Shown in pieces: positions 53,010 to 55,954 of a DNA stretch of 64,000 nucleotides. A program made the translations under genes and the position numbers. Within the stretch, counting starts at the first letter, position 1, and each line of letters starts with the position of its first letter. The stretch is from assembly GCF_900188205.1 (NCBI RefSeq), contig NZ_FZOH01000002.1:186001-250000 (forward strand), given 5' to 3'. Under the pieces are notes generated by a model, which was not told the origin of the DNA, did not search any database, and saw only the letters and a program-made list of their open reading frames with translations. The DNA is from Geodermatophilus saharensis. Its GTDB lineage: Bacteria; Actinomycetota; Actinomycetes; Mycobacteriales; Geodermatophilaceae.

Positions 53010-53591
53010 TCAGCCGGGCTGCTCGGCGGCGAGCGCCTCCTCCAGCTTGGCGCGCGCCACGGCACGGGCCTCCGGGTCGGTGCGGTCGGCGTCGTCGTCG
53101 AACACGACGGTCCACTCGCGGGCGGCCTGACCGGGCACCCGCCGGGCCACCAGCAGCACCCCTCCCCCGCCGGGCAGCGGCGAGCGGCGACTGGCGACGA
53201 CGGTCTGGTCGACCCGCCGGCGCACCACGGCCGGCAGGTCGCCGGCGTCGGTGAGCGCGTACCGCTCGGCCGGCTCCCGCGCCTGCACGCCGGGCTCCAC
53301 CTCGGCCAGCGCGGTCACGGTGAACGTCCCGCCGCCGTCGTTGGTGGCCGCCCAGCGGGCCGCCCCGACCTCGTGCCAGCGCAGCACGCCGACGTCGCCG
53401 GCCTCGTCGAGTCGCAGGTCGGCCGGGACCACCCGCAGCCCGCGGCTGGTGGCCGCCAGCCAGCCCTGCCCGCGCGCCATCTCCCCCCACGCCAGCACCC
53501 GCTCCTCGGCGTCCGCCGACGCCTGGACGACGGCGCGCACCGGCTCCGGCGGACGGGCGAACCGCCTGCGCAGCCGCTCACCCAGGCTCAC
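53010..53591 (-). CDS. Hypothetical protein coupled to dnaG
   Basis: 193 residues, start GTG overlapping the dnaG stop by four bases (GTGA). Sequence SLGERLRRRFARPPEPVRAV, then ERVLAWGEMARGQGWLAATS, LRLDEAGDVGVLRWHEVGAA and a C-terminal helix EARAVARAKLEEALAAEQPG. It resembles a mixed beta domain rather than an enzyme and contains no recognised motif. Position suggests co-expression with primase. A longer upstream start would lie inside dnaG. Confidence 0.78.
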   Translation of the reverse strand: MSLGERLRRRFARPPEPVRAVVQASADAEERVLAWGEMARGQGWLAATSRGLRVVPADLRLDEAGDVGVLRWHEVGAARWAATNDGGGTFTVTALAEVEPGVQAREPAERYALTDAGDLPAVVRRRVDQTVVASRRSPLPGGGGVLLVARRVPGQAAREWTVVFDDDADRTDPEARAVARAKLEEALAAEQPG

Positions 53592-55954
53592 GTCAGCCCG
53601 CCGATCGCCCTTTGCCGCAGCGAGATGGCCTCCTGCTCGAGCGCCATCAGCCGGGAGAACGCGCGCATGTACTCGTCGCCCTGCTCGACGGGGTTCATCC
53701 GCTGCAGCTTCGCCTTCAACGCGGTCACCTGCCGCACGGTGGCCATCTCCTGCAGCCGCGCCAGCACCGCCGACACGTAGACGGCGTCGGCGTCGCCCAC
53801 CGAGCGCAGCGGCTCGACGGCGAGCGCGGTGAGCTGGGCGCGGGCGGTCTCCCGCTCGCAGTGCTCGGCCACCTCGTCGAGCCACGCCGGACCCGACACC
53901 CGGGCGGCCGCCGCGCCCCCGGCCGCCGCGACGGCCGCGGCGACGGCGGCGTAGTCGGGGTCGGTGTAGGCGGCGGGCGGAACGGCGTCGAACGACGGCC
54001 CGGCGATCTCGGGGACCTGCAGCGCCGCCTTGACCGCCTCCCGCTCGACCGCGAGCGCGGCGTCGTCGGGTGTGCGCTTGGGCTGCCGCGGCCGGCGGGG
54101 TGGCGCGGTCTCCCCGCCGGTGATCCGCCGGACCCGCTCGAGCACCTCGCCCTCGTCGGTGTCGCCGATCAACCCGGCCAGCCGACGGGCGTAGGCCGGG
54201 CGCAGCGCGTGGTCCTTGACCTGGGCGAGCAGCGGCGCGGTCCGGTCGAGCGCGGCCACCCGGCCCTCGACGGTGTCGAGGTCGTACTCGGCCAGCGTGG
54301 TGCGCAGGACGAACTCGATCAGCGGCGTCCGCCGCGCCACCAGGTCGCGGACGGCGGCGTCACCGTGCGCCTGGCGCAGCTCGCAGGGGTCGCGCCCGTC
54401 GGGCTCGACGGCGACGAACGTCTGCGCGATGAAGCGCTGGTCCTCCTCGAACGCCCGCCGCGCGGCCTTCTGACCCGCGGCGTCGCCGTCGAAGGTGTAG
54501 ACGACCTCCCCGCGGAACTCGTCCTGGTCCATGAGCAGCCGCCGCAGCACGCTGATGTGCTCGGGGCCGAAGGCGGTGCCGCAGGAGGCCACCGCCGTGG
54601 TGACCCCGGCGAGGTGGCAGGCCATGACGTCGGTGTAGCCCTCGACGACGACGGCCTGGTGCCGCTTGGCGATGTCGCGCTTGGCCCGCTCGATGCCGTA
54701 GAGGACGGTGCTCTTCTTGTACAGCGGCGTCTCGGGGGTGTTGAGGTACTTGGGGCCGGGGTCGTCGTCCATGAGCTTGCGGGCGCCGAACCCGATGACG
54801 TCGCCGGTGATGTCACGTATCGGCCAGACCAGCCGCCGGTGGAAGCGGTCGATGAGCGTGCCGCGCGAGGACTCCTTGGCCAGCCCGGCCGTCACCAGCT
54901 CCTGCTGCGTGTAGCCCTTCCCGCGCAGGTGCCGGGTGAGCGCGTCCCAGCCGCCCGGGGCGTACCCGCAGCCGAAGTCGACGGCGACCTGCCGGTCGAA
55001 GCCGCGGTCGGCGAGGAACTGCCGCGCCGGCCCCGCCTCGGGGCTGCGCAGCTGCTCGGCGTAGAACTCCGCGGCCGCGGTGTTGGCCGCGACCAGCCGC
55101 GCCCGCTGCCCGACCTGCGCACGGTCGGGGGCGCCGGTGGGCCGGCCGCCGTCGTCCTCGTACTTGAGGTCGATGTTCGCCCGCGCCGCCAGCCGCTCGA
55201 CGGCCTCGGTGAAGCTCAGGTGGTCGATCTGCTGGACGAAACTGATGACGTCCCCGCCCGCCCCGCAGCCGAAGCAGTTCCCGGTGAGGATGTCGTCCTC
55301 CAGCGTGAACGCGTGCGTGCCGGGCACCTCGGCGCAGTAGACCTCCTCCACCCGGTCGCTCCACTCGACCGACCGGACGACCCAGTCGCCGTCCGGCCGG
55401 CGGGCCAGCGGCGCCGGCACGGTGTGACCAGAGCCGGAGGCCGCCGCCACTACGGTCAGGGCCGGGACACGTTCCCGTGGGAACGACGAGGAGAGCCGGT
55501 CGCCGGGCAGGAGCTGCCTGGTCAGTCGTTCCGAGCGCGAAGCGCCCGACGGGACGAACCAGCGGTGCTCGTCGGTGGCGAAGAGCTCCTTCTCCCGACC
55601 GTTCCGGGAGACGACGACGCGCATGAGTCGCTGGACGCCGTAGCTCCGGAACGGCGCCTCGACCCAGCCGCCGTCCCCGTTGAGCACCCGGACGGTCCGC
55701 CCGGCGAGCTCCGCGATCGGGACCACGCCGTCCTCGGTCAGGACTCCTGTCTCCCCTGCCAGGCAGTGGAAGAGGTTGCGCGCGGGGGTGACGTGGAACG
55801 ACGGCGACTTCTCGTCGTGGAACGGGCACAGGCCCTTGAGGCTGCCGCCCCCGGCCCGCTTGAGCTGCAGGTGCTCGCCGACCACCTCGTCGATCCGGCT
55901 GCGCTCGCGCACCAGCGCGATGTCCGCCGCTCGGATGCGTCCCCGGCCGGCCAT
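53588..55954 (-). CDS. dnaG: DNA primase DnaG containing a mini-intein
   Basis: 788 residues including an intein of 163. The zinc-binding domain starts GLCPFHDEKSPSFHVTPARN (C43 and H46 are ligands); the next two ligands, in CFGCG (227 and 230), come only after the intein. The catalytic RNA polymerase/Toprim region has VVVEGYTDVMACHLAG and VVYTFDGDAAGQKAARRAFE; a C-terminal helical domain (residues about 640-788) should bind DnaB. Extein length about 625, normal for DnaG. It makes RNA primers at the replication fork. ATG at 55954 with GGAGGGGG. The intein must splice for the zinc site to form. Confidence 0.95.
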   Translation of the reverse strand: MAGRGRIRAADIALVRERSRIDEVVGEHLQLKRAGGGSLKGLCPFHDEKSPSFHVTPARNLFHCLAGETGVLTEDGVVPIAELAGRTVRVLNGDGGWVEAPFRSYGVQRLMRVVVSRNGREKELFATDEHRWFVPSGASRSERLTRQLLPGDRLSSSFPRERVPALTVVAAASGSGHTVPAPLARRPDGDWVVRSVEWSDRVEEVYCAEVPGTHAFTLEDDILTGNCFGCGAGGDVISFVQQIDHLSFTEAVERLAARANIDLKYEDDGGRPTGAPDRAQVGQRARLVAANTAAAEFYAEQLRSPEAGPARQFLADRGFDRQVAVDFGCGYAPGGWDALTRHLRGKGYTQQELVTAGLAKESSRGTLIDRFHRRLVWPIRDITGDVIGFGARKLMDDDPGPKYLNTPETPLYKKSTVLYGIERAKRDIAKRHQAVVVEGYTDVMACHLAGVTTAVASCGTAFGPEHISVLRRLLMDQDEFRGEVVYTFDGDAAGQKAARRAFEEDQRFIAQTFVAVEPDGRDPCELRQAHGDAAVRDLVARRTPLIEFVLRTTLAEYDLDTVEGRVAALDRTAPLLAQVKDHALRPAYARRLAGLIGDTDEGEVLERVRRITGGETAPPRRPRQPKRTPDDAALAVEREAVKAALQVPEIAGPSFDAVPPAAYTDPDYAAVAAAVAAAGGAAAARVSGPAWLDEVAEHCERETARAQLTALAVEPLRSVGDADAVYVSAVLARLQEMATVRQVTALKAKLQRMNPVEQGDEYMRAFSRLMALEQEAISLRQRAIGGLT
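55277..55765 (-). other. Mini-intein in the DnaG zinc motif
   Basis: 163 residues, DnaG positions 64-226. Block A is C1-LAGETGVLTEDGVVPIAEL. Block B is LFATDEHRW with the T-x-x-H (T64, H67). Block F is VYCAEVPGTHAFTL with C144 and H151. Block G is DDILTGN followed by extein Cys227. The penultimate residue is Gly rather than the usual His. No LAGLIDADG or HNH endonuclease is present, only about 60 residues between blocks B and F. Splicing joins NLFH to CFGCGAGG, restoring the CHC2 zinc motif. Confidence 0.93.

Follow-up and report, generated by a model that had tools for sequence, protein, structure and literature searches.

The DNA analysed here, a 64,000-nucleotide stretch of the Geodermatophilus saharensis genome (contig NZ_FZOH01000002.1, positions 186,001 to 250,000; hereafter the window, to whose numbering all coordinates refer), carries on its minus strand a dnaG gene for DNA primase (53588..55954) whose reading frame includes a mini-intein of 163 residues (55277..55765). 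The best explanation, which we consider probable though well short of certain, is that this element is a genuine, once-mobile and probably splicing-competent hybrid intein, lodged in the CHC2 zinc ribbon of the organism's sole DnaG and belonging to a phage-rich family. Judged from its residues, the active site is a hybrid that would join the entry of a class 1 intein (Cys1, Thr B:7 and Cys+1) to the full class 3 triad of Trp B:12, Cys F:4 and Thr G:5 (WCT), two sets of hallmarks that are usually described as mutually exclusive. Sequence, insertion site, predicted fold, empty sites, selection and mobility were observed directly; splicing itself and the order in which the nucleophiles would act are inferred.

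Active-site residues of the DnaG intein

A search of DnaG proteins for the same insertion site, as proposed in a preliminary description of this DNA, gave 683 matches; the best 120 were aligned with the G. saharensis intein, and all 121 of these DnaG inteins have the hybrid residues. Invariant throughout are Cys1 (55763..55765), the Thr, His and Trp of block B (TDEHRW, 55559..55576; Thr B:7, His B:10 and Trp B:12), Cys F:4 (55334..55336, within VYCAEV), Thr G:5 and Asn G:7 at the end of block G (55277..55285) and, as the first residue of the C-extein, Cys+1 (55274..55276), all on the minus strand like every other feature given below. At G:6, 116 of the 121 have Gly and the other 5 have Ser. 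The penultimate Gly and Cys F:4 had been noted as uncommon in the preliminary description; both residues are indeed present, but what it overlooked is that Cys F:4, Thr G:5 and Trp B:12 together form the class 3 WCT signature, which is complete in 121/121 and accompanied by Cys1.

These residues straddle the published classes. Class 1 is marked by Cys, Ser or Thr at residue 1, a position held by Cys in 121/121 DnaG inteins; these also share (121/121) the Thr of the block B TxxH motif, which is typical of class 1 without being exclusive to it and is found as well in 6/6 relatives that begin with Pro (Pro1). Class 2 inteins, of which all known examples reside in KlbA, begin with Ala1 and rely on direct attack by the +1 residue (PMC4031507), and Cys1 sets the DnaG intein apart from them. 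Class 3 inteins are described as lacking a nucleophile at residue 1 (PMC3196547, PMC5050341, PMC7891396, PMC5222942), as a rule miss Thr B:7 (PMC6195587), with Ser or Thr as their usual +1 residue (PMC5222942). Because Cys1 is present in every one of the 121, the DnaG intein is not filed as class 3; likewise, since the 1701 class 3 inteins of one collection were chosen as those without an N-terminal Cys, inteins that combine Cys1 with WCT fall outside that set (PMC7891396).

Compared with the class 3 inteins Msm DnaBi1, Mch DnaB1, Bvi IcmO and AceL NrdHF, the DnaG intein retains Cys1, has Thr B:7 and Cys+1, both unusual there, and carries a penultimate Gly instead of His. Set against the class 1 inteins of RecA, DnaB-b and Npu DnaE, it has Cys in place of the common Asp at F:4, adds Trp B:12 and Thr G:5 and again differs by its penultimate Gly. 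Natural gp41-1 lacks the W and the C, whereas the DnaG family naturally has WCT and Cys1 together; an engineered gp41-1 from which Cys1 had been removed (C1A/F65W/D107C; 6riz) yielded what may be spliced product, in minute amount only (PMC7664689).

The suggestion in the preliminary description that an intein at this DnaG site may be undescribed needs some qualification, as DnaG is named as a eubacterial intein host in a table of PMC5874633. The host protein is the same, and the entry may or may not refer to the present family, as the passage in question gives neither site nor class. In a literature search, with subscription papers mostly outside its reach, neither an intein at the DnaG zinc site nor a Cys1+WCT family was found described, and the suggestion holds to this extent for the site together with its residue combination. 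Tori and Perler reportedly described in 2011 a phage intein that has WCT and a potential nucleophile in first position; in that case there is one precedent for the hybrid state, which would count against its novelty.

An intein within the zinc site of the only DnaG

The dnaG gene encodes a complete precursor of 788 residues, intein included, in which Pfam and NCBIfam models match the CHC2 zinc ribbon, the catalytic core, the TOPRIM domain and the DnaB-binding domain, and which is the single DnaG match in the whole 4.9-Mb genome. The intein occupies precursor residues 64-226, beginning with CLAGETGV and ending with DDILTGN, directly before the CFGCG of the C-extein. Zinc ligands of DnaG are Cys43 of the CPFH motif (55826..55828, within the CHC2 zinc finger PF01807), His46 (55817..55819) and, once spliced, both Cys of CFGC, namely Cys+1 and, as ligand 4, the second Cys (55265..55267); all are invariant in 121/121. 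Translation of this sole dnaG agrees with the preliminary description in placing the insertion exactly between ligands 2 and 3, with the +1 residue as ligand 3. Before splicing, that ligand position is held by Cys1 of the intein (FHC).

That these 163 residues might instead belong to mature DnaG as an ordinary domain, or be a dead insert, is hardly credible. Such a reading can point to the models Pfam Intein_splicing and NCBIfam intein_Nterm, which match the insert below their cut-offs, while one intein hidden Markov model matches above its own. It runs, however, against the empty sites of close relatives. Homologues, which the preliminary description had named as the place where an ordinary domain would come to light, read through as ...HCFGCG... 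without insert at 18 of 30 loci, the other 12 (G. saharensis included) carrying the insert, and an empty-site relative (G017) is 94% identical to G. saharensis DnaG beyond the site. It also runs against purifying selection, the single copy of the gene and the predicted model of the insert, which has an intein (HINT) fold with blocks A, B, F and G recognisable by fold search and alignment. An ordinary domain was rejected on the empty sites and the fold together. Sequence searches of solved structures, made with the intein alone and with profile A1, returned no significant intein match; the fold search did find one. A splice register starting from Leu2, which would make the element class 3 and leave the first Cys to the extein, was rejected as well: it would yield FHCCFGC, unlike the 18 empty sites, and Cys1 aligns with Pro1 of six viral reductase inteins.

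Selection on the insert was followed in comparisons with nine loci of relatives; three of these come from genomes that the set already contains. The ratio of nonsynonymous to synonymous substitution (dN/dS) was 0.18-0.40 in the splicing blocks, similar to the 0.13-0.33 of the exteins. The linker (55385..55531), which lies where relatives have their endonuclease, is just 37-52% identical in these nine comparisons, and its dN/dS exceeds that of the blocks in 8/9, the exception being L038. Alignment, predicted fold and domain search bear out the earlier account of a mini-intein of 163 residues with blocks A, B, F and G and without endonuclease: a LAGLIDADG-type domain between blocks B and F is absent by Pfam and alignment, and present in relatives. 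Among the 121 DnaG inteins, 72 are full-length (310-319 residues), which suggests that the 163-residue form was derived through loss of the endonuclease. Two DnaG entries named Geodermatophilus nigrescens (P0002 and P0006) differ in this very feature, one having a mini-intein of 160 residues and the other an intein of 315; their difference suggests either a recent endonuclease loss or mislabelling.

The dnaG gene is essential in bacteria. Because it is present here in single copy and the splicing blocks are under purifying selection, the intein is probably functional, and its conservation in a single-copy essential gene likewise argues that it is probably competent for splicing. With no other dnaG in the genome, primase should therefore depend on splicing, and we infer that unspliced DnaG is inactive.

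Distribution, mobility and viral relatives

Matches to the family occur in 31/112 Geodermatophilaceae genomes. Scanning reference genomes brought up 114 relatives; of the 80 retained, 78 have a zinc motif CP[FWY]H at most 40 residues before the intein, the remaining two being the RtcB locus L102 and the cut-short L079; a search of 396 Actinomycetota genomes, with up to 5 candidates scored in each, yielded at least 5 matches. As loci were found through motif patterns, frequencies are biased. Most hosts belong to Actinomycetota (Geodermatophilaceae, Nocardioides, Nocardiopsis, Streptomyces, Actinoallomurus and others), with proteobacterial hosts, Alphaproteobacteria among them, represented by Azospirillum and three further assemblies (L105, L107, L112).

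Inteins and exteins tell different histories. The intein blocks of Azospirillum and G. saharensis are 62% identical, their DnaG exteins 37%. L098, by title a Geodermatophilaceae assembly, shares 73% of extein and 62% of block residues with L033, but 62% and 78%, respectively, with Actinoallomurus L088. For Geodermatophilus aquaeductus (L058) and G. saharensis, the exteins are 95% identical with a synonymous divergence (dS) of 0.23, and the intein blocks have a dS of 0.43. These discordances, together with the host range, point to horizontal transfer of the intein family.

This mobile character bears on the idea of a domesticated zinc or redox switch, in which zinc or oxidation would pause replication by trapping Cys1, Cys F:4 or Cys+1 along with Cys43 and His46. 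The re-creation of ligand 3 by Cys1 in the precursor (FHC) would suit such a switch, as would the reported inhibition of the class 3 intein Msm DnaBi1 by zinc and H2O2 via its block F Cys (PMC7360933, PMC6195587), although carrying the control by redox state, metal or stress that the preliminary description suggested over from Msm DnaBi1 to DnaG is an analogy. The patchy presence in 31/112 family genomes and the signs of cross-phylum transfer resemble a mobile element rather than a conserved switch, and we regard a switch as improbable.

Related inteins also reside in phages, a plasmid and other host proteins. The position in the DnaG zinc site is occupied in phage proteins resembling primase: L116 and L126, whose matches to Toprim or primase models exceed the cut-off, and L117 and L120, where such models match below cut-off only. 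A MobF relaxase record of Skermanella rosea plasmid pSR-4 (L153) combines a CHC2 zinc ribbon, above cut-off, with the same intein at the site known from DnaG. A related Cys1+WCT intein lies directly before the CHHN motif of the RNA ligase RtcB in L163 (G026:C6:27136-28077) and L102; when the host families of ten viral and other loci were checked, RtcB of L102 scored above the Pfam cut-off and L119 matched no host family.

Viral loci were picked by their block F pattern alone and confirmed by tblastn. An earlier set of 120 loci had given 112 inteins that could be cut out, the other 8 being without a readable intein end. The viral set of 80 loci was reduced to 68 by removing L259 and L291 (no readable block F), the truncated L330 and nine identical copies. 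By residues 1, B:12, F:4 and G:5, these 68 unique complete inteins comprise 52 Cys1-W-C-T, 6 Pro1-W-C-T, 5 Cys1-W-C-S, 3 Cys1-W-C-I and 2 Cys1-W-C-V. The six Pro1 inteins, two of them near-copies, follow ...MTAG...YN or FN, precede CS or CA and are class 3 by the published definition. Their site, in a viral ribonucleotide reductase, is occupied by a Cys1+WCT intein in L318 and by Pro1 WCT inteins in L298, L301, L309, L312, L313 and L135. Of these hosts, L298 matches reductase models above cut-off, whereas L318 and L135 do so at scores below it. More distant reductase inteins occur in the marine and Vibrio phages L158, L159 and L160; they have Cys1, HKW or HKF, TYCF and ends in LTGQ or LTGN, i.e. 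a partial or full WCT set with Cys1.

The Pro1 inteins lend some substance to the view that the DnaG intein splices as a true class 3 element, Cys F:4 attacking the N-terminal junction directly and Cys1 being a dispensable relic. At one reductase site, position 1 has evidently been changeable while Thr B:7 and Cys+1 stayed (6/6), and the WCT triad of the DnaG inteins is complete in 121/121. A dispensable Cys1, however, would have no need to be invariant in those 121 inteins and kept in 62/68 viral relatives, and we think this view unlikely.

Two further observations concern the insertion sites and the genome of G. saharensis. In GC-rich relatives with an empty site, for example L018 (G022), L019 (G018) and L029 (G027), a sharply bounded patch of synonymous codons ending in A or T covers the insertion point, where the GC content of third codon positions is, in these three, 0.36-0.45 as against 0.96-0.98 for the gene. 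Such a patch falls within the lowest 0.5% of windows in 6/23 empty genomes of the family and in 0/15 genomes from elsewhere in the order (one-sided Fisher 0.037, without correction for kinship and with the threshold set after the data had been seen); it is also found in occupied alleles, in 2/12 within the family (G008, G031) and in 8/78 named loci. Silent recoding against homing and a footprint of co-conversion would both fit. In the dnaB gene of G. saharensis (G000:C14, L194), site a holds an intein of 403 residues with Ala1 and WCT, class 3 by sequence, and site b an intein of 426 residues that is class 1 by sequence. With dnaB and dnaG both bearing inteins, both primosome partners are intein-split, and the genome contains three kinds of intein: DnaB-a (Ala1, WCT), the class 1 DnaB-b and the DnaG hybrid.

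Order of nucleophiles and the origin of class 3 inteins

Since Cys1 is invariant, it probably makes the first attack. Most likely, Cys1 would form the first thioester, with Cys F:4 either assisting it or receiving the N-extein and passing it on; Cys+1 would then make the standard branched intermediate, and the final Asn would cyclise, freeing the intein and completing the zinc site as ...FHCFGCG... As a more specific and tentative proposal, Cys1+WCT inteins may splice by a relay of three cysteines, from Cys1 to Cys F:4 to Cys+1.

Phylogeny offers one way of placing these inteins. A first tree of splicing blocks included 22 of 78 DnaG loci and the G. saharensis intein (L118, L134, L141 and L150 being excluded as duplicates), and a viral tree was built from 68 viral and 10 reference inteins. 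In both, the class 1 rows share one side of a supported branch (14 rows with 95/92 in the first tree; 5 rows with 100/99 in the viral tree), and WCT rows fall on one side of the class 1 branch, their inner order being weakly resolved with so few columns. In the viral tree, the Pro1 rows form a group with DnaB-a and one Cys1 row (support 82/95), and both of two further trees place the Pro1 rows with the Cys1+WCT reductase rows.

These results speak to the alternative of an ordinary class 1 intein, in which W, C and T would have a structural role or have arisen by convergence, and would be irrelevant to class 3. In its favour, the class 1 inteins that have Cys F:4 are described as polyphyletic (PMC3196547), large hydrophobic residues including Trp occur at class 1 B:12 (PMC7891396) and gp41-1 carries the Thr alone (PMC7664689, PMC12245125). 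What this alternative leaves unaccounted for is that all three co-occur and are invariant, that the triad is found in 0/14 sampled class 1 rows (one of which, L148, was placed there for lacking it) and that the Pro1 inteins, formally class 3, lie close to Cys1+WCT reductase inteins in the two further trees. Such an ordinary class 1 intein strikes us as doubtful.

If the hybrid site is what its residues suggest, it touches on how class 3 arose, a matter of dispute in the literature between two views. One holds that the first nucleophile was lost and the loss then repaired (PMC3196547). The other assumes a separate, protease-like origin, because grafting WCT onto a class 1 intein fails to rescue it, and argues against any direct descent of class 3 from class 1 (PMC7664689). 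Cys1+WCT inteins are candidate living intermediates in the origin of class 3, and the trees are compatible with this. An attractive reading is that WCT came first and Cys1 was lost later, the DnaG family being a plausible descendant of the state that gave rise to classical class 3.

Several observations weigh against this reading and against the hybrid site behind it. As 6/6 Pro1 relatives keep Thr B:7 and Cys+1, those two residues alone are no proof that Cys1 is used. Deep branches are poorly resolved in alignments of 143 and 142 columns, and the branch that bears the canonical class 3 DnaB-a rows is very long (3.35 and 4.22). A single clade of all inteins without Cys1 is compatible with the data in the approximately unbiased test (p 0.765, the constrained tree being the better one; 0.34 for the viral set). 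Finally, in both of the two further trees the class 3 DnaB-a inteins form the sister group of all remaining WCT rows, so that more than one order of changes would fit.

A relay of three cysteines, if true, would answer the argument of PMC7664689 and reverse the order proposed in PMC3196547. With at least 173 natural inteins that have both residue sets (121 in DnaG and 52 on viral contigs), the question of origin becomes directly testable, and one family of these Cys1+WCT inteins resides in an essential gene of ordinary actinobacteria. The DnaG site moreover places three splicing cysteines in the zinc site of primase, making it a natural place to ask whether zinc or oxidation delays primase maturation.
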